Shown here: piece after piece, positions 45,700 through 64,000 of the stretch
Numbering within the stretch: the stretch's first letter is position 1
How the letters are laid out: each line of letters starts with the position of its first letter
From: Symbiodinium sp. CCMP2592
Lineage: Eukaryota > Sar > Dinophyceae > Suessiales > Symbiodiniaceae
Direction: 5' to 3'
NCBI GenBank assembly: GCA_905221615.1
Contig: CAJNDT010005833.1
Coordinates: 70,001-134,000 of the forward strand
DNA: 64,000 nucleotides
Notes under the pieces: model-generated
The model's database searches: none
What the model saw: only the letters and a program-made list of their open reading frames with translations
Told to the model about the DNA's origin: nothing
Made by a program: the position numbers and the translations under genes

Positions 45700-46620
45700 T
45701 TGGGGCGTCAGGAATGAGACTCTGTACTACTACTGTACTACTATTGTACTACTATTGTACTATTGTACTGCTACTGTATGCCTTGCTTATTGGGGGGGGC
45801 TGCTAGGGTGAACCGCCGAATTGGGAATTGGGCCCTTGCTCGACAAAGGCCTCTCCAGTACTAAAGTTTGTACAAAAAAATTCAATTTTGGGTCCAATCT
45901 GGACCGACCCCCCTTTTGGAAGGGTTTAGGGCTTAGGGTTTAGGGTTTGTTAGGGTTTAGGAGTTTAGGATTCGCTAGGGTTTAGGGTTTGTTAGGGTTT
46001 ATGGTTCAGGGTTTAGGGTTTAGGGTTTCAGGCGCTGGCTTTATGCTTTGCTTATTGGGGGAATGTGCTCACTGGCTTTATGCTTTGCTTATTGGTACTA
46101 TTTCTGTACTATTACTGTATTACTACTGTACTACTGTACTACTGTCGTACTACTACTGTACTACTAGTGTACTACTGTACTACTATTGTACTACTACTGT
46201 ACTAATACCGTACTACTATTGTACTACTGTACTATTATCATACTACTACTGTACTACTATTGTACTTCCACTGTACTACTGTTGTATTACTATTGTAGTA
46301 CTGCACTATTATTGTACTCCTACTGTACTACTACTGTACTACTATTGTACTACGGTACTATAATCGTACTACTACTGTACTACTACTGTACTACTATTGT
46401 GGTACTATTGTACTACTGTACTATTTTTGTACTACTACTGTACTAGTATGGTACTACCGCTGTACTACTGTTGTATTACTATTGTACTACTGCACTATTA
46501 TTGTACTACTACTGTACTACTGTTCTACTACGGTACCATTATCGTACTGCTACTGTACCACGACTGTACTACTATTGTGCTACTATTGTAATACTGTACT
46601 ATTATTGTACCGCACCAAGC
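45700..46620. repeat. TACTACTGTAC-type satellite
   Basis: From 45,715 to 45,780 and again from 46,090 to 46,610 the DNA is made of TACTACTGTAC / TACTATTGTAC units. The long Tyr/Leu/Val/Cys reading frames here come only from this repeat. Between the two parts lie TTTAGGG units and a duplicated GCTTTATGCTTTGCTTATTG. Confidence 0.85.
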
Positions 46621-47339
46621 TTCAGACGTGGTCGATTTGTGGGTGGGAGTGTGGGAGTGTAGGTTACGGAGGCTAAGAGTGTTCAAAACGAAGGGTTTTT
46701 AGTCTTGGTAGTAATCTTGGAGTGATCGGGGCTTGGTTTCCAGCATTTGGTGATCCCCAGACCCCCCCGACCGCGCATTCGCGCAGAACCGCAGACCCTG
46801 CACCCAAGCCAGCCCCCAAACCCCGGCACCTCCCAATTCCCTGCCACTCAGATCCCTGACCCCTGTCCGGCTCCACTTTAAATATAATTTTTTTTTTGGT
46901 CGGGGGGGGGTACCCCACTATTAAACCGACACCCACATTACTGGGTTTTGAGGGTTCCGGCCCACATGACACTAGAAGCCCGAACTTAAAACACGAAGCC
47001 CTAAACCATCAGAACCTACTGAAGTTTCCAGCAACTGCGAGCAAGGTGCGGGGCAGGAAATCTTGCGTGCAACTGCGTGCCTCGGAACAGGGGGTTTTGG
47101 GGTTCAAGGTTTAGGGTGTGGGGGTTTAGGGTTTAGGGCGGGGGTACAAAGCAGAAGAGCCCTTGAACACAGCGGCTTAGAGATAGGTCTGAATTGACCG
47201 CAATGTAGAACTCTCTACGACAACCAGGGTCCGTTCCACAAGCAACCCTAGATATGGTACTCACTTTTTGTCAGAAACGCCAGGTGCATTCACCACCGGT
47301 CACTACAAGCCGCGAAAATCACACCACAATTTGAAAGTC

Positions 47340-50940: not shown

Positions 50941-51134
50941 GGAAACTGTATCAGCTCCGAAGCCTTCGGGTGCTTCCTCGATTTCCCGGATGTTGGCTGA
51001 ACCTTGCAGGGCTACTACCAGGGTCGAGGGCATTTAGGGTGCAGGGTTCGGGTTTGGGGGTTTCAGGATACTATCTAATCTTAAGGTTTATAAGGCTTGG
51101 GGTCTTGTGGTTCGGGGGTTCAGGTTTTGGGAAT

Positions 51135-51156
51135 TTCTATATATATATATATATAT

Positions 51157-51210
<54 letters not shown>
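51135..51210. repeat. TA microsatellite
   Basis: Nearly unbroken TA with a CACACATACA interruption. Similar runs are at 2,515-2,536, 14,297-14,315, 21,368-21,402 and 42,345-42,374. Confidence 0.85.
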
Positions 51211-52410: not shown

Positions 52411-52784
52411 CTCGGCGCTTCGGGAGGTTGAAAGACTGGGGGGCCTAACCCTTAACCCACTGACAGACAGTCGGAGTTTAGGGTTTAGGGTTTAGAGGTG
52501 TAGAGGTTCAGGATTCCTTAGGGGTCCAGGGGTCAGGGTTGTTTTTGTTGTTGTTGTTGAACACCCCAATCCCAAGCCCAAAACTTACTATAAGGACCAC
52601 CAAATAAGGTACCCCTAATTTTCGGAAACCCCCATACAAGCGAGTCTACTCATTTTACGGCCTCCCCAGCATCTCCCTGGTCTCAAGGGTTCTCTTGCGG
52701 CCTGGCATGCAGACTCGATACTAAGACCACCCAACAAACATAATTGTACAGCTGCGTGACCCCAAAATATCCACGTGCGCACGC

Positions 52785-52862: not shown

Positions 52863-53243
52863 CATGAGCGCACCCTTACAGACCTTGGGCCACAGGGGCT
52901 TTAGAAAAACTGGAAATCGGCTCGTGAGGCCCGACTAAATGCAGTGCACCAACGAAAAATGATCAACCTTGTCGGGTTCTTTGGGATCCCTGTATTTTTT
53001 TTAAGTGCAACGGACTTTTGATGATCTCGCAAGCCCTCCGGATTGGGTGTGCACTCCTTTGCCTAAAATCCCTGTATGTTTAGGGTTTAGGGCTTAGGGT
53101 GTGTAGTGGTCGTCCAGAGGGTTCTTGTAGACTTCCTCTACGGTTCTTTTAGCATTCAGGGCTCAGGAATTGGAATTCTGCTTGGAGCCTCAACCCTATA
53201 TCAGCGCCCAATCCCGAGGTCCTACTACCCAGGCACCATTCAC

Positions 53244-54050: not shown

Positions 54051-54332
54051 AAGTCCGAGCAAGGCTCATGAAAGTGACCGATGATGTCCACTGCAACAGC
54101 AGGCGCTCCTCCAGGCATCTTAAAACTTCGTTCGCTTACCCTAAGGGTGTCTGGGGAGCTGAATAATTACTTGACTTAGACTTGAGTAGTGGAGTAGATC
54201 TTGGAACACCGGTAGAAAGAAGATACGGGGATATGGTGTTTTGAGGGATCTGGAAAGTACATAATACATCTCCCCGGCAAAACCAGTTTGTCATACTGAA
54301 CTCAGACCCGTAGCACAAATTACAAGATTAGC

Positions 54333-54511
54333 GGTTTCTTGGTAAAAGGAACCAACAATTAAAACATAATTCTAAGTTTACCCCTAAGTTTGGTTTCTTA
54401 GGGATAAAAGGAGCCAACAATTAAAACATATTTCTAATTACCCCTAAGCTTGGTTTCTTAGGGATAAAAGGAACCAACAATTAACACATGTTTCTAAGTA
54501 CCCCTAAGTTT
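54333..54511. repeat. About 60-bp tandem repeat, 3 units
   Basis: GGTTTCTTAGGGATAAAAGG and CCAACAATTAAAACATA recur at 54,333, 54,392 and 54,452. A related single unit (TTTCTTAGGGATTATAG ... TTTCTAAGTACCCC) lies at 40,428-40,485. Confidence 0.85.
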
Positions 54512-54599: not shown

Positions 54600-54746
54600 C
54601 GGCCAACCAAAATACAATTTTGAGGCGGGGGGGCGGGTGAAATTTGGGGTGGGTGTGGTCTTTGGGGCGGACACTCTCCACCACAAAGCCCGAAGCCCCC
54701 ACCTTTATATGTGCCAGCATCCGCGCACCCCCCCCCCCCTCCCCCC
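54600..54746 (-). other. Possible polypurine tract and start of 3' LTR of the retroelement
   Basis: On the minus strand a G-run of about 20 nt interrupted by an A is followed by TGCGCGG, and about 20 nt later by a TATAAAGG-like box. A purine tract followed by TG is how an LTR 3' end begins. The tract lies about 550 nt below the ORF3 stop, so the 3' UTR would be long. Without the 5' LTR this stays tentative; the run may be simple-sequence DNA. Confidence 0.25.
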
Positions 54747-55295
54747 TGTGCCGATACACCCACAAGGAATACTCCTTGTTAGGAGGTGTATGACCAGTTA
54801 TTCCCTAAGGATCAAAGGGCAGCGCCCTGCACACGGACAGTAGTTGTTTTGTCTTGCTACGCAAGGAGAGCTTGTCTTGTCTCAATATGGTAAAACCACT
54901 GTGAGCCAATGGGCAGCGGAATGTATATGTATGAGCATGCAGCCATTGCTGTAGGTACCTGTTAGAGCTACCCCTTTAGAGGTTTATGGTTTCAAACAGA
55001 CACTAATTTTCTTTTACCGGAAGCATGGCCGCACATTCACACATATACTATTATGCCCACTGTCACAGTTGCGGAGTCTGGACTCATGATGAAAACAGCA
55101 TATTATTTAAGCTAGGTATAGCACTGAAGTACACTGCTGAGGACACTCCTTTTGCACACACTCATGCATGTTGGTCAGAGAGATCGTCTGTACAAGATCA
55201 TGTCTGGTGATATTTTCTACATCGAATTATGCAGCCCTTCACTTTGCTCTTGTTAGAGCTTTGTGAGTCACTGTTGTGAAACTCTGAGAATTTTC
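54747..55295. other. Non-coding stretch between ORF3 stop and G-rich tract
   Basis: Nothing coding is seen on either strand that I would trust. If the G-rich tract is the element's polypurine tract, this is the element's 3' untranslated region. No terminator or polyadenylation signal is recognised. Confidence 0.3.
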
Positions 55296-58200
55296 TTATC
55301 TCAGATTCGGATCCAGGTTTGGATCATAGGCTCGAGCATAGACGTTCGGATGTGGCTCATCCGGGTCTGAGTGATCTTCTTCGGAACTTGAAAAGATTCC
55401 GAGTAGTCTGTTCTCAGCCCTGGTGAAGGCGGCGTCTGCAGTATCATATCCATGGTTGGATGTTGTCGCCTTTGGCTCGGCCTTTGGCGCAGCTTGTGAG
55501 CTGACTGGAGTTGCCTTGGCTTTAGCCGGTTGTGGCTGCTTAGCCTTTGCCCGTTCAGCCCTTCTTCTTTCAAGCTGTCCGTCTGAGGACGCCCATGATC
55601 TTTCACTTTCATCTCCTGAAGGAGATAAGGCGTGGGCATAAAGGCTATTCCAGTACTGTGCTGCAGAAGGAGTTAGGACTTCTTCATTGTCAGATTCTGA
55701 CTGGTCTTCCTCAGAGCTTTGGTCGTCAAAGAGTGTCTCGAGGACATTTTTGAGATTGTTATTTCTTCGCTCTATCTCTAGTGAGGAATGGACCAATTGG
55801 TTAAAGACTGTCCTTGAGTCCTTCAGTGCTGTTAGAAGGATTTCCACTCTGGATAGAGTATCTTGGATGGTGTCAAGATGTTCCTTCCTTTCCTCCTTGT
55901 CTCTCTGGATAGAGCTTCGCAATGATTGTGCGATTCTGAGGAGGTCTGTGTATTTCGTAAGAGGCATAGTTACCGTTTGATTGTCATGTATGACAGTTGT
56001 TTCGTCGCCGCTTAAGTTCCTGAATAGGACTTCCACGACTGGTAGAAACTCCGTGCTCCACGGTTCCTCTTCATCATATGTTTCTACGTGCTGTAGCACG
56101 CGTTGTGTAAACTGATCGGCTGCTTCTACCGTTGCATCGATAGAGCTGACGTGTCTTGCTGCCATGTTTCGGCACGTAATGTTAATTGCCTGGCCTTGAT
56201 TGGCTTCGTTAAGTGCAGCGTCTGCATAGGTGCAGAGTCCACTGTTGTGGGCTTCTCTGGCTGCCTTTCGTTGAATGCGCCGATTTTGACCTCCTCTTCT
56301 GGTAGGACCTTTTGGTCTCGGAGGATCTGAAGGTACTGTTCCTTTCGCCTTTGGCGGAGGACTCTTAGGTGGAGGTGACATGTTTGCCTTGTTAGGCACT
56401 GGTGGCATTGCCTTGGGCGCTGACGACGATGCGGCACTTGAGAGTGCAGATGTACCTTTGGCTTTTGCCGAGGATCCCTTGGGGATCGATGTATAGGTAA
56501 TCTGCATGGCTTCTTCGGCCATTTGTGCATGCAATGCATCTTTGAATAATTGCGTCATATGAGGAGTGGTACTTGCATCATCGTAGGTCTGGAAGCGCTC
56601 AATGTCTCTTTCGGTGCCACGTGGACGTGTATCACCTCTTTGAAAAGGATCGTTCCTGCGAATCTCCGCAACTTGTACTGCATGGAGGCAGTTTTTGCAC
56701 AGCACCTTCCTGCAAACATCTCTTGCTTGCTTGAGCTGGTAACAGCTGTCTGAGAGATGGTAGACTTCGCTTCGGGAAGTATGCCAGATAGGTCGCAGAT
56801 CAGTTGTTTCTCCGGAATTGACCCTGTTGGGTCCTAAAGGTTCACGCGTCTGCGGTTCATCCTCGGGTTCGAGGAATGGAACTCTTTGGTTCGCTGCTGC
56901 TTTTGATTTTGGTTGTTGGCGCTCCATACATCTGATAGGAGGCCTGGTAATCTGCTTCCACATCCAGTGTAAGCCCATTAGCAGCAGAAACACATTCCAC
57001 GCGATGCTGAAGACGGAGAAGTCCTGCTCACTGGTTAGTGAGTTTGGAAGTGAAGTTTCATCAGTCTTGATAGACTCTGCGTTCGCTCCACCTTGGTTGC
57101 GGTGTCCGAACCAGCCCGACAACCCCGCTGCTGTAGCAGCTGTTCTGAGTGCCTTGCCGCTCGGAGCAGACGGTGGACGCGATGCCTTCCTTCTTCTCCT
57201 CCGGCTGGAGGATTCGTCCTCTTGTTCCTCTTCATCTCTCTGAGCAGACATCAAGTTTGATGTTTCTCTTTCGTGTTCTTCGATGTCACTTTTTGTTGGT
57301 GACGGTTCTTCTTCTAGTCCATCCAGCTCTTCCAAAGACATGTTGAGCTTGTCAACAATATTGGTTCTTTGAGGCCTGGACCTTGATCTTGGTAGATCTT
57401 GTTGTGAAGAGGACGATGATTCCTGGTTCCTTCTTGGAGGAGGACCTTCAGGCTCGCTGGGACGTTCAGGCTGTGGCCATTCCCAGAATCTTCCGTATCT
57501 GTGATGGCTACCTGATGGTTGCGATCTGTCGTACCAGCTGTTGCCGGATGAGTAAACGAATGAATCTTTGTAACCCCAGTATTCAGCATTACGCTGCTTG
57601 AAAGCCTTTCGCTTGTCAGCGATCTTCTGAACCTGGGCATCTGACCGGTTGTGTTTCCCTTTTGTAAGGATTGGTTGTATCGTGAAGCCCAAAGGGCTGT
57701 GCCAATCTTTGTCAGAGGGACTCAACCATAGGTCAAGGTTAGAAAAAGTTGAATAGTACTGCTTGACTGAGACAAACAGACGGATATCAATATCCCTGTT
57801 ATTGTTCATGTCCTGCCACATATCTGAGATTCGCTCCCAGTATGTTCTTTCGGCGGCAGGTGTAACATCTCTTGGACTAGGTGACGCCGTGTGCGGCGTT
57901 TTACTCCAGTCAAGGATATAACTGTTGATACAGTCAAGGTCAGCAACTTTCTTCGCCGGGTCCGCCGGTAGACGATCTGCACGTGCCAGTCTGTGCTGGT
58001 CGGAGTTGTTCAAGCAAAGATGTCGCACTTGTGAGTGCCTTCCTGCTATTTTGTTGAATGCTGCAAGTTTCTTCTCCAGGTATAGAGAAAACAAACTGTT
58101 TCGCGGGTGAACGTCTCCACCTTTTAAGGTGAGCCTCGACGCAATATTATTGAGATCTCCCGCTATTACATCCGGTTTAAAAGGGAGAATCTCGTTGAGG

Positions 58201-59111
58201 AACGCGTTCACCAGTTCGCGTCTCTGTTCTTCCTTATGAGTCATGTATGAGTTGAAATGGACGATCGCGATGGTGATGACCTTGTAAGGCCCTTTTGTAC
58301 ACCACATCTCGTCAAGATCGTTCGATGCTTCTTGTGAGAAGATCTCTGCGTATGACTCAAAGTCTTCCTCTGGTGGCTCATCACCCTCGACATGGCCGTT
58401 CCATTCACAGAGAACCGGCGAGGGGTCGAGGTTCGACAGTGTCAGGCACGCCTCTGGTGAGAGGTAAGAGCCATCAGTGGGTCCATCCTTGTCAGGATTT
58501 TTGCCCTTGAGTGGGTCATATCCGATAATCTGCATGAACTCGTCTCTCGTCATCCTTTGGCCAGAATATGGGTGGACCCATTCTTTTGCCTCCTGGATGG
58601 TACTGTGGTACCCAAAGGTGAGGCGGCATACCGCACCGTGGCATGCCCACAGTCGCTTCTTGGGACCACCATTCTTAGGCTTCATTGTTCGATGACGGTA
58701 AAAGTGGTGGACGAGAGCGATGTCTGTTGTTGGGTCACCCTTGACTCCAATATACATCGAGGGTGCCTCAGGCTCCTTGGGAGGAGAATGGATTAGCATC
58801 CCCCTGTATTCATGTTGTCGCATGGTTGCGATCGAATACTCTGACGCAAGTGCTCCTGCCTCGAGTACGAGGGTAATATGAGCTGAATTGTTGAAGCACA
58901 TGTCAATAAGAGGGTGATAATCGAATCCCTTCTCAGGTTTGAGCTTCTTTTTGGGATTCCCTGCGGGCACCGGCGCTCGATCCATATTTCCCCAGTTGAA
59001 TACCACTAGGTTTAGCGATACGCTGTCTGGGTTTGAGCCTTCAATGTATTCTCTCTTCTCGTTAACACCGGCCATCCTATTGCGAACTATCTCGTAATGT
59101 GCGTCGAGCAC
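55296..59111 (-). CDS. Retroelement ORF3 with endonuclease/exonuclease/phosphatase (EEP) domain, membrane segment and coiled coil
   Basis: A 1,271-residue ORF that looks like an EEP-fold nuclease (APE/DNase I-like) with long tails. Motifs in order are VVFNWGN (36-42), LVLEAG (Glu84), AIVHFNSY (282-289), VIAGDLNN (315-322, matching the GD-N catalytic pair), DLDCINSY (391-398) and DKDWHSPLGF (467-476, like the SDHxPL end motif). Residues 560-660 are Ser/Arg/Glu-rich. A hydrophobic span at 699-716 could cross a membrane. Cys790, 800, 805 and 808 with nearby His may bind zinc. Residues about 1,040-1,120 look coiled-coil. The listed start is a GTG; the first ATG is 12 codons later. The frame is open upstream to about 59,362 and reads like protein, overlapping the end of ORF2, so expression by frameshift is likely. 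The stop is TGA at 55,296. Confidence 0.88.
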   Translation of the reverse strand: MLDAHYEIVRNRMAGVNEKREYIEGSNPDSVSLNLVVFNWGNMDRAPVPAGNPKKKLKPEKGFDYHPLIDMCFNNSAHITLVLEAGALASEYSIATMRQHEYRGMLIHSPPKEPEAPSMYIGVKGDPTTDIALVHHFYRHRTMKPKNGGPKKRLWACHGAVCRLTFGYHSTIQEAKEWVHPYSGQRMTRDEFMQIIGYDPLKGKNPDKDGPTDGSYLSPEACLTLSNLDPSPVLCEWNGHVEGDEPPEEDFESYAEIFSQEASNDLDEMWCTKGPYKVITIAIVHFNSYMTHKEEQRRELVNAFLNEILPFKPDVIAGDLNNIASRLTLKGGDVHPRNSLFSLYLEKKLAAFNKIAGRHSQVRHLCLNNSDQHRLARADRLPADPAKKVADLDCINSYILDWSKTPHTASPSPRDVTPAAERTYWERISDMWQDMNNNRDIDIRLFVSVKQYYSTFSNLDLWLSPSDKDWHSPLGFTIQPILTKGKHNRSDAQVQKIADKRKAFKQRNAEYWGYKDSFVYSSGNSWYDRSQPSGSHHRYGRFWEWPQPERPSEPEGPPPRRNQESSSSSQQDLPRSRSRPQRTNIVDKLNMSLEELDGLEEEPSPTKSDIEEHERETSNLMSAQRDEEEQEDESSSRRRRRKASRPPSAPSGKALRTAATAAGLSGWFGHRNQGGANAESIKTDETSLPNSLTSEQDFSVFSIAWNVFLLLMGLHWMWKQITRPPIRCMERQQPKSKAAANQRVPFLEPEDEPQTREPLGPNRVNSGETTDLRPIWHTSRSEVYHLSDSCYQLKQARDVCRKVLCKNCLHAVQVAEIRRNDPFQRGDTRPRGTERDIERFQTYDDASTTPHMTQLFKDALHAQMAEEAMQITYTSIPKGSSAKAKGTSALSSAASSSAPKAMPPVPNKANMSPPPKSPPPKAKGTVPSDPPRPKGPTRRGGQNRRIQRKAAREAHNSGLCTYADAALNEANQGQAINITCRNMAARHVSSIDATVEAADQFTQRVLQHVETYDEEEPWSTEFLPVVEVLFRNLSGDETTVIHDNQTVTMPLTKYTDLLRIAQSLRSSIQRDKEERKEHLDTIQDTLSRVEILLTALKDSRTVFNQLVHSSLEIERRNNNLKNVLETLFDDQSSEEDQSESDNEEVLTPSAAQYWNSLYAHALSPSGDESERSWASSDGQLERRRAERAKAKQPQPAKAKATPVSSQAAPKAEPKATTSNHGYDTADAAFTRAENRLLGIFSSSEEDHSDPDEPHPNVYARAYDPNLDPNLR

Positions 59112-59286
59112 CAGTTTGTCTTCGTAGCCAGTAAGAGAGAGAAAAGAAGCCGGGTGGCTTGTTCTAGAGTCCTTGATATTGATGTGACTCTTGTTAATGC
59201 TCTTGTATTCCTCCAGGGTTGGAGCCTCTGTGGAGCTGTCATACGTATTCGGAGGATTGTTCCTAATATCATCAAGGCTGCATGGA

Positions 59287-62211
59287 TCAACGCCTGGATG
59301 GTCCTTTCTCGAACAGATTTCTTGCGTGGTCGCAATACATGTTGATTTTCTGGACTGCCAAATCTACGTCCTCATGTGTGAGGATGGCCTCGTATAAAAA
59401 CTGACGCTCTTCTGAGGTCATTCCTGCTGACACTTTAGAGGTCTCGAGGCAATCGATTGGCAAGACGCACTCGCACATCCGTTGTTTACCCTGTGGGGTA
59501 AGTCGACAGTCTGCACATACAATCGTACCACAGGAATAGCAAAAATAGCCTGTAGGCTGTTTGCAGAGATCGCAGAGAGGATTGTCTGGTCGAGGCAACA
59601 TCCGTATCCTTTGGTTAAGGCTCATGGCTGTCCTGCGTACTCCTACAAATCTCTCCTTGGTAGGAGGTGCAGAGGAGGAAGATGCCGACTCTCTGGGTCT
59701 GTCCCACTCCTCTTCGTCAGGAGCCTCAGAATCTTTGATCATGAGTGGACTTCGGATTTTTCGATTCCATCGACTAACCCAGATTCTCTCTTGCATTTCC
59801 TGTTGCATAGCCGGGTTAGACGATGACTTCGAGATTCGGTGCTTGCGATTTTCTCGAATTCGAGCGCTGATGCGCTCATGTTCTCTTACGAGGTCTTCCT
59901 CATCAGCAGGCTCCTCGTATTCGAGGTTGAGCTTGCTTCTGTTGACTCGATAATAAGTTTCTGTTTCAGGATCGAAGAGAACTAGGAATTTTTCCTTCTC
60001 CTTTTTAGGAGATTTTGGTTTCCTTGGCTCTTCGTCTGAACTCTGAACATATTCTGTTTCAGGCTTTGGTTGGTCAAGTTTGACCTTCTCAAGTTTCTCT
60101 GTGATCTCTTCCGTGGGAGATTCTTTCTTCTCCTCTGACGCTGCAGGTGCAGAGTTCGTCTTGTGAGACGGATTAACATCAACTCGGAGTTCTGAGGATG
60201 ACGAAGATTTTGAGCTCTTTTCGCTCTTTTCGCTTGATGCCGACTCAACGTCTGATTCTTCGTCACAATCCTGGTTAGGATCTGGTTCCTCAGGTTCCGT
60301 CTCTGTTCCAGAAGATTCTTCCTTGGGAGGAACTACGTTGGCAGAAGTATCCTGAACAGGTTCTGGAGGTTTGTGACCTGTCGTTATCTTAAGAACTTCA
60401 GTGGCGCTTCTGGTGCCGTCGGAGTTCCAGAGCTGTCCCATAAGACTGTCCGGATCCTTGTCTGCCTCGGCCTGCCGGGCGAGCTTGGATCTCGGATGGA
60501 TGTCCTTTGTAGTAGTCTCCGTTTTCGGAGGTACCTCACCTGCAGAAGCGGTTTGCTCCAGGTTTGGAGCTGTGTCAGCCTCTGTATTTGGCAGAGAGAA
60601 AGACTTCTTGTGAGAAGATCTGGCCTTGGGAGGCTCTGGAGGCAGATTTCGCTTTGACACCTTCCGAAGTGTCGATTCGATCTCTTGGCCGTAATTTGCG
60701 CACCATTTCTTCGACTCGTAAGTCGCTGACGGCATCTGTTCGGAGCAGTGGTCTGCCCACCATGGTCCGATGCTCTTGAGCTCATCGTATTGCGATGATA
60801 CCCAGAGTGGTTCAGAGGGTGCGAATACGGCGCTAAGAGTACGGGCATGCACTACCTCTGGTGTAGCAAACATCCCTGCTTGCGACTGCCACATGTTTGT
60901 GACTTCGTTCACTACGTTATTTGCGTCGAATACTAGAAGCAGTGCCTTGTTGGCACGCAACATGGTCGGATTAGGATTCGCCAGGTCTAGCGTTGAAAAC
61001 TGAACAGTGTCCCTGTTGGAACGACTGTTTTCATTCACGAGAGCTTGAAGACCTGGTGATGTAACCACCTGCGATAGGAGGTTTGATGGTACCAGACCGT
61101 GCCTCAGGATTGAGGATAATGCCTGTAGGTCCGTGGCATGCATGATGTAACAAGGGTTGTTCTGTCGAACAAAATCCTCCATGCCTACGGGTCTCGGCGC
61201 GTTAGTGGAGAGACGCTGTGCACGGGACTGCACTGGATTGCTGCCCGTTGCCATGAAGTCTGAGATGGTCATGTGTGACCTTGGCCTCTCTTCTTCAGGA
61301 TCTGGTTCTTCAACTCTTGGTAGAGTTCGTCGTGAACCGTGTCCTCCCACTGCCGAGAGGAAAACTTTGGTCATGGTCAGCACATTTGCATCCGGTGGGA
61401 TGGTAACGGCGGCATCTGTGGTTTCGGCCTTGCCATCTTGGTTATAAACCATAGTGACCACGAACCTGGACTTAGTGTTGAGGAGGACACCAAGCGCGAT
61501 CTCTTGCGGTGTATACTGTGCGAGCTGTGAATCGGCCAACTTGAACATGTCCAGAAGATAATTGTGTTGGCCAGTAAAGAGATCAGGGCGATCGTTCTGA
61601 AGGTGTCTTGTTGAGTGTGCCAACCACCTTCCGACTCTGTTGGTCTTGGAAAGAATGTGGAAGCACATCTCTGGTGAGAGACCTGTTACCTCTGCCAGTC
61701 TTGGCACTGAGGAGGAATAGTCATATTCTCCGGATGCATCAAGACTCACACATTGTTTTACCTCCGGTGGGAGGCCTGTCTGAAGGTGATGTGCAAGCAT
61801 CGTACAAAACTGGCGTGGATCACGAGCGTGATTACCCACGTTGTTATCCCAGTATACAAGGGGACTGTTGTCCCATGGTCCTTGAAGGACTCCTTCGTAG
61901 AGCCTGACTCCATGTCTGGAGATTGGAGTGAGCCTTGCTCGACTCGCATGGCCACATCGTGAGATCAGTTCAGCAAGATCTCTTGGATGCGGATTGAACA
62001 CCTGTTGGTGACCCATGTAAATGTATGGAGGCTCGTGATTTTTCTCACGTTTGTGAAATCGGTGTCCACCGTGTTCGGTGTGTCGACGTGATGCTTCCCG
62101 ACGAGACTCGGGGTACGAGCTATCCATGTGTGGATGTCGCTCATGGTACGCCTGTACTGCCCTGGGTAGGGCGTGTCCATCACGGCTACGGAAGTTTGAT
62201 CGTGTGCTCAT
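59287..62211 (-). CDS. Retroelement ORF2 with ADP-ribosyltransferase-like (KptA/Tpt1-like) segment and Cys-rich finger
   Basis: A 974-residue uninterrupted ORF downstream of pol on the same strand. Residues 1-340 are unrecognised and His/Arg-rich at the start. Residues 353-466 follow the order of RNA 2'-phosphotransferase (KptA/Tpt1) and related ADP-ribosyltransferase folds: YIMHAT (His358), ILRHGL (368-373), TVQFS where KptA has HVHLS, LLLVFDA (Asp429) and MFATPEVV (447-454). The family link is inferred from motif order only. Several catalytic Arg/His positions of Tpt1 are not obvious, so activity is uncertain. Residues 560-800 are acidic and Ser/Lys-rich, probably disordered. Residues 880-921 form a cysteine cluster (CDLC, CYSC, CADC, CEC), a B-box or RING-like zinc-binding candidate. 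The ATG at 62,211 follows an in-frame TGA near 62,254, so translation probably starts there. No cell gene of this architecture is known to me. Confidence 0.85.
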   Translation of the reverse strand: MSTRSNFRSRDGHALPRAVQAYHERHPHMDSSYPESRREASRRHTEHGGHRFHKREKNHEPPYIYMGHQQVFNPHPRDLAELISRCGHASRARLTPISRHGVRLYEGVLQGPWDNSPLVYWDNNVGNHARDPRQFCTMLAHHLQTGLPPEVKQCVSLDASGEYDYSSSVPRLAEVTGLSPEMCFHILSKTNRVGRWLAHSTRHLQNDRPDLFTGQHNYLLDMFKLADSQLAQYTPQEIALGVLLNTKSRFVVTMVYNQDGKAETTDAAVTIPPDANVLTMTKVFLSAVGGHGSRRTLPRVEEPDPEEERPRSHMTISDFMATGSNPVQSRAQRLSTNAPRPVGMEDFVRQNNPCYIMHATDLQALSSILRHGLVPSNLLSQVVTSPGLQALVNENSRSNRDTVQFSTLDLANPNPTMLRANKALLLVFDANNVVNEVTNMWQSQAGMFATPEVVHARTLSAVFAPSEPLWVSSQYDELKSIGPWWADHCSEQMPSATYESKKWCANYGQEIESTLRKVSKRNLPPEPPKARSSHKKSFSLPNTEADTAPNLEQTASAGEVPPKTETTTKDIHPRSKLARQAEADKDPDSLMGQLWNSDGTRSATEVLKITTGHKPPEPVQDTSANVVPPKEESSGTETEPEEPDPNQDCDEESDVESASSEKSEKSSKSSSSSELRVDVNPSHKTNSAPAASEEKKESPTEEITEKLEKVKLDQPKPETEYVQSSDEEPRKPKSPKKEKEKFLVLFDPETETYYRVNRSKLNLEYEEPADEEDLVREHERISARIRENRKHRISKSSSNPAMQQEMQERIWVSRWNRKIRSPLMIKDSEAPDEEEWDRPRESASSSSAPPTKERFVGVRRTAMSLNQRIRMLPRPDNPLCDLCKQPTGYFCYSCGTIVCADCRLTPQGKQRMCECVLPIDCLETSKVSAGMTSEERQFLYEAILTHEDVDLAVQKINMYCDHARNLFEKGPSRR

Positions 62212-62435
62212 TACGGCACGATGACCAAACAGGATCAGGAATGCTTGGTTAGCTCAAAAGGCTGATTGCTGTGAGGCTCGAGGCTGAAAGCGGCTGCGGA
62301 TGATACAGAACATATAGTTCTCATGAACATGTCCGATCTTGATGAAAACGCAGCCTGCAGACACAAATTTTCTTTTAGACGGAAAACAGTCTAAATAGAA
62401 AATCCAGCACATGGTTGTGCTACCAGCAAACAAGA

Positions 62436-64000
62436 CTACCACCATGTTCCTTGGCAGTAAAATAATCGGTAAATCTCTGTTGAGACATCAATTCCAAGGA
62501 AGGCTACCGCTGTAGCGGCATTCTTAAGGTTGTCTATGATCCACCGAACAGTGAAAGCTTTATGTTGAAGAAGTTCACGGAAGGGTGGATGAATGTCTGT
62601 TTCTGGTAAATTTCCTGTTTCCAGAGCCTTGATAAGCTCATCAGGTTGCGCCGAATGCTTTGTTAATGCATCAGCTAGGCAGTACTTCGAGCTTACATGA
62701 GCTAGGTCATCTAAAGATCCAGAGTTGGATTCCTTACGAAGCATCTGTATAAGATGGTGAGTTTCCTTCTGCTCTGGAAGGTGTGTCGTGCCTGCTGTTG
62801 TCACAAGATTGTTCGCATCTGTTCTGATATGTATAGGTACGGTCTCTGATGAGAGATCTGCCCAAAGTCCCTTGAGGAACAGGCAGGTACCAAAGCAACG
62901 CATCAGTGCGTTAAGCTCTGCCACTGTTGTGGACATTGTGGTTGTCGTAATCTTGTGAGACTCATAATCCACCAGGCTACCTCTCGAGGATGTTTCCTTA
63001 ATAGAGGATTCAGAGAAATCGTTCTTCTTGGAAGAAGCAGCTGCTGCTGATTGTTTCATTCCCTTTAGCTTTGGATTTCGATCTTCAGCAAGGAAAATAA
63101 CATGTGCTCTCTGAGATGATTTGTCATCATTGTTCCTGTAGGAAGCATCAGGGTAACCGAGGATTCTGAGATTTCCTTTCAGCGGCCAAAAACGCAATTC
63201 TACTTCGGTAGACTTCAAAATCCTAACAAGCTTGTTCAATTCTCGAATATCACCGATAGTAGGCTTGGCAGCCTTGCTCGCACACCGACTGAAGCGATAA
63301 CAGATGTGAGCTTGAGTCCGGCTTTGTAGCCAGTTGATCTGTCCTAAAACACTTCTATAAGCAGTGTGCTGCTGTGGTGTGCATTGTTGCTCATTGTTGA
63401 GCTTCTTATCAAAAACAATTTCTTCTAGAGCTTCAACAGCTAGGTTCTGATTTACTGAGATATGTGCTGGCACTGATGCTGTAGCATCCTTCCAGACTAA
63501 TCTCTGTCCTACAAACATGATATCATTCGTGTCTTCAGAACCTACTGCAAACTCCTTTTTGATCGATTCAATCACGGCCTTACGAAAGGTGTCATCACCG
63601 GCCATGCACAGGTCATCTACATGCAAACAGACTACTCCATGTACCTGTCTACCCTTGGCATTGTTGCCTGCTATGGGATCTAGGAGATAGTCAATCGCTG
63701 ATTCCATGGTCTTTGGCTGAGACTTCTTGAGCTCAGCATCTGCTGTTGCAGACTTCTTACCATACAGAACATATGTACAGCGATCCGCACGGGTTGGCAC
63801 CAGGCCATAAGACAGGAGTGCCTTATCAACGATGTTCCACCATCTTCGAGGTGCATCGTTAAGTCCATAAGCGGGTTTCTTCATCCTCGCTGCAATGTAG
63901 GGAGGATAACCTGCTTCAGGAGGAATCTGACAGATTATGTCTCTCGACTCATCATAGGCTTCACCCTGCAGGAAAGCAGTCTTTAGGTCGATGTGTGTCA
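62436..64000 (-). CDS. Ty1/copia-type pol polyprotein, C-terminal part (reverse transcriptase and RNase H), partial
   Basis: This is the reverse transcriptase and RNase H end of a copia-type retrotransposon; these enzymes copy element RNA into DNA. The frame stays open to the right edge, so integrase and protease would lie outside. At the edge it reads IDLKTAFLQG, the usual copia RT start, then KPAYGLNDAPRRWW. Counting from the Met at 63,884, the catalytic motif is HVDD at residues 88-91, where many copia elements have YVDD. The connection motif YRSVLGQINWL follows near 176. RNase H has GYPDAS (Asp246), VAELNAL (Glu323), RTDANN (Asp356) and CLADALT (Asp405). The stop is at 62,436. No frameshift or in-frame stop is seen, so the copy may be young. 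The next ORF on the same strand starts 224 nt downstream. Confidence 0.93.
   Translation of the reverse strand, partial: THIDLKTAFLQGEAYDESRDIICQIPPEAGYPPYIAARMKKPAYGLNDAPRRWWNIVDKALLSYGLVPTRADRCTYVLYGKKSATADAELKKSQPKTMESAIDYLLDPIAGNNAKGRQVHGVVCLHVDDLCMAGDDTFRKAVIESIKKEFAVGSEDTNDIMFVGQRLVWKDATASVPAHISVNQNLAVEALEEIVFDKKLNNEQQCTPQQHTAYRSVLGQINWLQSRTQAHICYRFSRCASKAAKPTIGDIRELNKLVRILKSTEVELRFWPLKGNLRILGYPDASYRNNDDKSSQRAHVIFLAEDRNPKLKGMKQSAAAASSKKNDFSESSIKETSSRGSLVDYESHKITTTTMSTTVAELNALMRCFGTCLFLKGLWADLSSETVPIHIRTDANNLVTTAGTTHLPEQKETHHLIQMLRKESNSGSLDDLAHVSSKYCLADALTKHSAQPDELIKALETGNLPETDIHPPFRELLQHKAFTVRWIIDNLKNAATAVAFLGIDVSTEIYRLFYCQGTWW

Follow-up and report, generated by a model that had tools for sequence, protein, structure and literature searches.

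Layout of the locus

The DNA analysed here is a stretch of 64,000 nt from Symbiodinium sp. CCMP2592 (contig CAJNDT010005833.1, positions 70,001 to 134,000). We refer to this whole stretch as the window, and all coordinates are positions within it. On the minus strand, three long frames follow each other: the 3′ part of a copia pol, then ORF2 and then ORF3. The pol frame (62436..63998, stop to stop) is open at the window edge. It contains what we take to be a reverse transcriptase from motif A on (63998-63960, 63869-63837 and 63629-63609) followed by RNase H-like motifs at 63158-62658; the Pfam RNase H models have no match in the window.

Between the stop codon of pol and the first ATG of ORF2 lies a spacer of 224 nt (62212..62435, minus strand), in which a CTGCAG at 62360-62355 resembles a splice acceptor. 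ORF2 has 988 codons from stop to stop (59287-62253), and 974 codons plus the stop if counted from its first ATG (59287..62211). It comprises an N-terminal region without known fold, a stretch resembling KptA/Tpt1 proteins of the ART fold (60862..61182, a weak profile match below its cut-off), an acidic linker and a B-box-type zinc-finger-like site (59503..59586). ORF3 has 1355 codons from stop to stop (55296..59363) and overlaps the ORF2 frame at 59287-59363; summed, the two overlapping frames amount to about 2,300 codons. Within ORF3 we find a series of motifs in the order of EEP nucleases (57690..58997, no profile match), a lone hydrophobic stretch that may be a membrane helix (56958..57020; the Kyte-Doolittle maximum of ORF3 is 1.56 over 19 residues) and a Cys/His-rich stretch, VYHLSDSC...CRKVLCKNC, that could form a small zinc site (56688..56765). 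Further along the minus strand, a run of G-rich purines followed by TG (54728..54747) is a candidate polypurine tract with the putative start of the 3′ LTR. Past it lie three 60-nt tandem repeats (54316..54497), which may be part of a possible 3′ LTR or of the flank.

A copia family in many copies

The reverse transcriptase of the element is of the Ty1/copia, RVT_2 type. On the window's pol frame, whose copy of the domain is truncated at the edge of the stretch, RVT_2 scores 28.4 bits (E 1.6e-6) against a cut-off of 31.6. The cut-off is passed by two homologous proteins, P0004 (47.5 bits) and P0008 (47.6 bits), and a composite peptide, in which the upstream part of locus L001 is joined to the window's reverse transcriptase, reaches 60.6 bits. 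The start of a third homolog, P0006, looks integrase-like by eye; Pfam integrase models have no match in the relatives.

The earlier note on this DNA had raised the possibility of a combined copia/non-LTR element. In such a hybrid, an EEP nuclease would nick the target DNA and take part in integration or priming as it does in non-LTR elements. The EEP-like order of the ORF3 motifs speaks for the idea, three points speak against it. First, the reverse transcriptase is RVT_2, and RVT_1 (Pfam) matches neither the window frames nor the relatives nor the composite peptide. Second, the EEP-like stretch lies downstream of the reverse transcriptase, not upstream. Third, the EEP identity is itself unproven, no profile having matched. 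A hybrid mechanism finds no support, and we regard it as extremely unlikely.

The 1.1-Gb genome contains at least 83 copies of the reverse transcriptase, this one included, at about 100% amino-acid identity (the best 83 scored of 3062 candidates). The top score is shared by 38 of the 83, and internal stops are absent. Of these copies, 33 sit in open frames as long as a gag-pol (2652 or 2658 aa); the remaining 50 sit in other, mostly shorter frames.

For eight of the 83 copies, located on 7 contigs, we fetched the DNA from pol into ORF2, ending short of ORF3. ORF2 follows pol in all eight, at 99.4–100% nucleotide identity, and one locus on a different contig (L002) is identical to the window across 3,062 nt. 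When the window is aligned with seven of the loci, none of the 224 spacer columns varies; L003, whose spacer is one base shorter, was left out of this alignment for its indels. Over 1,273 nt of ORF2, compared between the window and 7 loci that together give 7 distinct sequences, 10 of the variable columns are synonymous and 10 are non-synonymous. Without selection, one expects non-synonymous and synonymous changes at roughly 3:1. ORF2 shows fewer residue changes than this ratio.

Since all eight fetched copies continue into ORF2, pol is mobilised together with ORF2, and it is well supported that they belong to one element. One could also argue that the locus is a composite of neighbors, in which an LTR belonging to pol follows RNase H, and ORF2 and ORF3 are part of another element or of a host gene. 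The 224-nt gap and the change of frame after pol would fit this argument. Yet nearly identical copies on 7 contigs all run from pol into ORF2, the joint copying of reverse transcriptase and ORF2 over 3,062 nt speaks against an LTR right after RNase H, and the order pol, ORF2, ORF3 recurs among homologous proteins (see below). We consider a composite of neighbors very unlikely.

A probable single polyprotein behind pol

All named protein matches to the window frames come from Symbiodinium. Pieces of pol, ORF2 and ORF3 occur in this order in four of the ten homologous proteins (P0004, P0006, P0007 and P0008), although the pol piece of P0006 and P0007 is limited to sequence that precedes the reverse transcriptase or forms its beginning. 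In the other six, for which we have protein sequences only, pol is absent within the protein. The earlier note had proposed a single element with extra coding sequence; this now stands well for pol and ORF2, and the conserved order in the four proteins makes it reasonably supported that ORF3 belongs to the same element.

ORF2 runs into ORF3 as a single predicted chain in P0001, P0002, P0003 and P0010, again four of the ten homologs, with identities of 49–90% for ORF2 and 57–96% for the main ORF3 piece. ORF2 and ORF3 therefore probably encode one extra polyprotein. The two large minus-strand frames that had been noticed behind the copia reverse transcriptase and RNase H are indeed there, with their 988 and 1355 codons, but probably not as two separate genes, and we dropped two separately captured ones as the leading idea. 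As the relatives were compared at the protein level, not the DNA level, and the gene models of some look clearly odd, the ORF2/ORF3 join may be a product of splicing. The longest homolog, P0001, has 1,900 residues, ends inside ORF3 and carries a hydrophobic N-terminal extension ahead of the ORF2 start. Viral contigs, scanned once with pol and once with ORF3, gave one pattern match each time and zero relatives.

Taken at the level of the whole element, we think it quite likely that the window holds a member of a Ty1/copia-type LTR family of Symbiodinium that is young, present in many copies and extended past RNase H by a second coding region, which encodes one large accessory polyprotein. That this copia element acquired the polyprotein is the best reading.

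Enzyme-like stretches in the polyprotein

A KptA/Tpt1-like order of motifs in ORF2, as claimed in the earlier note, is weakly borne out by profile searches, with all matches below the curated cut-offs. The Pfam model PTS_2-RNA (Tpt1/KptA, PF01885) matches the whole ORF2 frame at E 0.02 and a piece of 141 residues at E 0.0028, the best value, with 18.1 bits against a curated cut-off of 26. On the same piece, the runners-up DUF7002 and DUF4732 follow at E 0.038–0.039. The KptA model of NCBIfam gives E 0.17 on the piece and no match on the whole frame, and KptA is the best-scoring name for the stretch in both libraries. Among the three relatives that cover the stretch, PF01885 recurs below its cut-off in P0001 (E 0.025) and P0006 (E 0.15) and is absent from P0003. 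A PDB profile search with the ART alignment yielded three unrelated weak matches and no KptA, and a PDB search with ORF2 yielded only weak B-box chains. An AlphaFold model of the ORF2 N-terminus and the ART-like region (4 sequences) has a mean pLDDT of 34 and is unusable for the fold. We tentatively call the stretch KptA/ADP-ribosyltransferase-like, a label that is weakly supported. The B-box zinc finger PF00643 reaches 24.6 bits in the window's ORF2, just over its cut-off of 24.1, and 12.5 bits in P0003.

ORF3 had been assigned an EEP nuclease. The motif order is present, the nuclease identity is not confirmed by any profile. NWGNM, LVLEAG, VHFNS, GDLNN and DKDWHSPL follow each other like the catalytic series N, E, H/Y, GDxN and SDxH, with a different spacing before the last motif. 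Among the ten homologs, NWGNM is found in 6, LVLEA or LILEA in 7, HFNS in 7, GDLNN in 6 and DKDWH, whose position several homologs do not span, in 2. The motif chain occurs in ORF3 and in XthA, in 0 of 3000 shuffles of each and in none of 13 further proteins of E. coli, by a pattern drawn up with ORF3 and XthA already seen.

Pfam returned no match to EEP (PF03372) for ORF3 or the relatives, NCBIfam no EEP match for ORF3, and the best names for ORF3 in the profile searches, all weak, were RSS_P20, T2SSF and Stealth_CR4. A PDB search with ORF3 had 0 matches; the PDB profile search with the EEP alignment had three, unrelated and weak. Aligned to ExoIII with hhalign, the EEP-like region obtains 0.9%, at the wrong place, which beats 10 of 11 unrelated controls and is below astA at 5.1%. 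A protein search with the EEP alignment, aimed at free-standing EEP proteins and scoring the best 8000 word-sharing candidates, found four proteins, all of this family. The AlphaFold model of the region (7 sequences) has a mean pLDDT of 30. P0003 spans the position of DKDWH without having this last motif, and for this reason we put the odds that ORF3 is an EEP nuclease somewhat below even. Of the captured RNA-repair and nuclease domains that the locus had been said to carry, the KptA-like one is thus weakly indicated and the EEP one by its motifs only.

What the polyprotein may do

The element would move in the usual copia way, by its presumed LTRs and integrase. The accessory polyprotein could be made separately from gag-pol, given the stop codon and the 224-nt spacer, perhaps by trans-splicing, and might act on the ends of RNA or DNA. 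With NAD+, its KptA/ART-like part would attack 2′-phosphates or host targets, the EEP-like part would work as a phosphodiesterase, and the outcome would be that RNA or cDNA of the element is protected or host defence blunted. A bolder picture is speculative and rather improbable: one chain behind pol would join a KptA/ART-type enzyme that depends on NAD+ to a phosphodiesterase of the EEP class. Selection in Symbiodinium would keep this chain for RNA-end repair or counter-defence, where it would shield or mend RNA or cDNA of the element, or counter host defences that work by cutting or tagging RNA. If both readings were true, experiments could examine here how a retroelement uses RNA-repair or counter-defence enzymes of its own, and this in a coral symbiont with a genome that retroelements have shaped.

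Alternatively, the large and partly disordered polyprotein could be structural or envelope-like, serving particle assembly or membrane tethering, with the resemblance to KptA and EEP due to chance. Copia elements with envelope-like genes include the Sireviruses of plants, and such genes sit 3′ of pol. Some copia lineages have gained such genes, according to the excerpted text of PMC9289625. The single hydrophobic stretch of ORF3, together with the B-box and the acidic stretches, the hydrophobic extension of P0001 and the fact that no enzyme profile exceeds its cut-off are all compatible with a structural role. On the other hand, ORF2 as read from its ATG in the window has no hydrophobic stretch. 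KptA is the top name in two libraries and recurs in two of the three relatives covering the stretch, and the EEP motif chain did not arise in any of 3000 shuffles, albeit with a post hoc pattern. We hold a structural or envelope-like role to be unlikely.

Comparison with known elements

A large KptA- and EEP-like load behind pol is unusual for a copia-class element, tentative as these labels are. A young, high-copy copia family with so large an accessory polyprotein would mean that big cargo is possible in copia elements too. Among the matches listed from the open-licence literature, as far as their text extends, cargo of the KptA, ART or EEP kind is not described for any copia element. The envelope-bearing copia elements in the excerpt of PMC9289625 likewise have additional coding sequence beyond gag-pol; going by description, the product of the window is much larger and contains, besides a B-box, the stretches that resemble KptA and EEP. 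The same excerpt reports Ty3/gypsy elements of Phalaenopsis that carry an ORF for an AlkB-type RNA demethylase with demonstrated activity. Those LTR elements have captured an enzyme that modifies RNA and encode it in an additional ORF, as ours may do, but they are gypsy elements with shown activity, whereas the window holds a copia element with candidate enzymes. The plant genome survey described there counts 15 uncommon domains among LTR elements, every one of them in a gypsy type, and in that part of the text no domain gain is reported for plant copia elements.

Captured enzyme domains have also been described in Symbiodinium retroelements. In the available sections of PMC5890265, SymbioLINE-Dnmt and SymbioDIRS-Dnmt3, which belong to the LINE and DIRS classes, carry cytosine methyltransferases, with Exo_endo_phos among their domains according to a figure legend, and the copia elements of Symbiodinium are without any DNMT domain. 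The window element differs from both in being copia. Another known family is the copia family of S. microadriaticum that is activated by heat (Chen et al. 2018, as cited in PMC11453091), which shares the genus, the RVT_2 reverse transcriptase and the character of a young high-copy family. As compared through the citing paper, the window element may differ by its extra polyprotein 3′ of pol.

An accessory product behind a copia-type pol

An ORF scan of the window's right end found three long frames in tandem on the minus strand: the 3' part of a pol frame (62436-63998, open at the window edge), ORF2 (59287-62253) and ORF3 (55296-59363). The pol frame starts at what we take to be reverse-transcriptase (RT) motif A, with presumed RNase H-like motifs further on (motif scan), and a profile search of the window frames gave a Pfam RVT_2 match within it. 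In outline the earlier note was right that two further long ORFs follow a copia RT/RNase H on the same strand. It had also raised the possibility of a combined copia/non-LTR element; with an RT frame of the RVT_2 type, such a hybrid mechanism is unlikely. The evidence speaks strongly for a copia-type element, with presumed LTRs, that encodes a large accessory polyprotein. The enzyme labels for this polyprotein (KptA/ART, EEP) are what we infer, and so is whatever mechanism one derives from them.

Unity of the element

An RT query against the 1.098-Gb genome gave 3062 candidates, of which only the best were scored, so that the count of at least 83 RT copies, including the window's, is a lower bound with a bias toward young copies. 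All 83 are about 100% identical over residues 1-520, without stops, and 38 reach the top score. Thirty-three of them sit in reading frames open for 2652 or 2658 residues; the remaining 50 are in different, mostly shorter frames. In all eight loci that were fetched, pol continues into ORF2 at 99.4-100% nucleotide identity to the window, over a comparison covering pol, the spacer and part of ORF2 (the loci end at about window 60939, inside ORF2). One of them, L002, differs from the window at no position over 3,062 nt. This is the pattern expected of a recently copied single unit.

The fetched loci end upstream of ORF3, and its linkage to pol and ORF2 rests on ten homologous proteins. Four (P0004, P0006, P0007 and P0008) contain pieces of pol, ORF2 and ORF3 in this order, the pol piece of P0006 and P0007 lying ahead of the RT or at its beginning. 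The remaining six, as protein sequences alone, have ORF2 and/or ORF3 without pol inside the protein. The gene model P0007 runs ORF3, pol, ORF2, ORF3, an order that suggests two elements head to tail. Homologs with a named organism come from Symbiodinium sp. CCMP2592 (two), Symbiodinium sp. KB8 and S. microadriaticum (protein searches). P0006, which NCBI lists as BSL3, fuses host annotation and the element in one gene model: element pieces occupy residues 277-1543, and a calcineurin-like phosphoesterase follows at 1656-1865.

ORF2 residue ~967 (counted from the ATG) is joined directly to ORF3 residue ~20 in P0001, P0003, P0010 and the gene model P0002, and the extra product is therefore probably a single chain. 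These homologs are known as protein sequences, not as DNA, and the join may be a product of splicing. Positions 59287-59363 of the window belong to both frames, which sum to about 2,300 codons; the longest homolog, P0001, has 1,900 residues and ends within ORF3. The single chain would not simply be part of gag-pol, since pol ends in a stop codon and 224 nt of spacer lie ahead of ORF2. Of the one element with extra ORFs that had been proposed, the union of pol and ORF2 stands in every fetched locus, and ORF3 joins by its order in four of the ten homologs; ORF2 and ORF3 are probably not two separate genes. P0001 has a hydrophobic, signal-peptide-like stretch (residues 1-76) ahead of the ORF2 start, and in the window no ATG occurs among the in-frame codons from the preceding stop to the ORF2 ATG (62212-62253).

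Variation was counted over the window and seven loci (L002 equals the window; L003 was excluded for indels). Over 1,273 nt of ORF2 the variable columns divide into 10 synonymous and 10 non-synonymous, with one codon holding two. Pol has 10 and 0, a figure biased because the loci were picked by RT protein score. None of the 224 spacer columns varies, and the excluded L003 lacks one base there. The ORF2 ratio, together with the long alignable chains at 50-65% identity in P0001 and P0003, points to purifying selection.

In a study of plant genomes (PMC9289625), the 15 uncommon domains of LTR elements all lie in gypsy types; a gypsy family with an AlkB-type RNA demethylase is described, and plant copia elements are reported to have gained no domains. 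For Symbiodinium, PMC5890265 assigns methyltransferases to LINE and DIRS elements and describes copia elements as lacking them. PMC8045281 finds the LTRs recovered in hybrid Symbiodinium assemblies little diverged and possibly active, and PMC11453091 reports a heat-activated copia family in S. microadriaticum.

Candidate enzymes

The KptA/Tpt1 reading of ORF2 survives in weakened form. Window 60862-61182 matches the Pfam Tpt1/KptA family at E 0.02 within the whole frame and E 0.0028 as an isolated piece, ahead of DUF7002 (E 0.038) and DUF4732 (E 0.039); P0001 (E 0.025) and P0006 (E 0.15) match as well, and the NCBIfam KptA model matches the piece at E 0.17. All these matches score below the curated cut-offs. 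The NCBIfam model did not match the whole frame, P0003 spans the stretch yet has no Pfam Tpt1/KptA match, and a PDB search with an alignment of the stretch found no KptA. Because two libraries and three proteins agree, KptA/ART is our best guess, not proven. A B-box site in ORF2 narrowly passes its Pfam cut-off (24.6 against 24.1 bits); in P0003 it falls below.

For ORF3, which had been read as an EEP nuclease, five motifs keep the EEP order (motif scan). Among the ten homologs, several of which do not cover all five, NWGNM occurs in 6, LVLEA/LILEA in 7, HFNS in 7, GDLNN in 6 and DKDWH in 2; DKDWH is missing from P0003 although its place is covered. A pattern composed after inspecting ORF3 and E. 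coli XthA (ExoIII) hit both proteins, none of 3000 shuffles of either and none of 13 further E. coli proteins; reduced to its GDxN core, the pattern hit 25 and 14 shuffles in the two sets of 3000. Searches against Pfam and NCBIfam gave no EEP match; the best weak Pfam names were RSS_P20 and T2SSF over the entire ORF3 frame, and Stealth_CR4 on a piece of it. A PDB profile search with the EEP-like region had no EEP match, and its predicted structure was an unusable model. Its hhalign alignment to ExoIII reached 0.9% probability, in the wrong place, with a score above 10 of 11 unrelated controls (the astA control was higher, 5.1%). The E and H motifs lie about 200 residues apart and the last motif is oddly spaced, presumably unlike standard EEP enzymes. 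The motif order thus stands without a profile match, and on these sequences we would give an EEP nuclease somewhat less than an even chance.

Candidate 3' end and other repeats

Past the end of ORF3 on the minus strand, a purine run leads into TG (54747-54728), a candidate for the polypurine tract and the beginning of an LTR; a repeat scan found three 60-nt repeats further out. Elsewhere in the window, a long array at 45703-46588 consists of 11-nt and 8-nt spaced units of CTGTACTACTA type, its copies roughly 60-90% alike. An AT-dinucleotide run at 51132-51209 could self-pair. Interstitial repeats of the TTTAGGG type, which we take to be the telomere type of plants and dinoflagellates, lie at 45915-46035, 47086-47134, 52467-52500 and 53069-53102.
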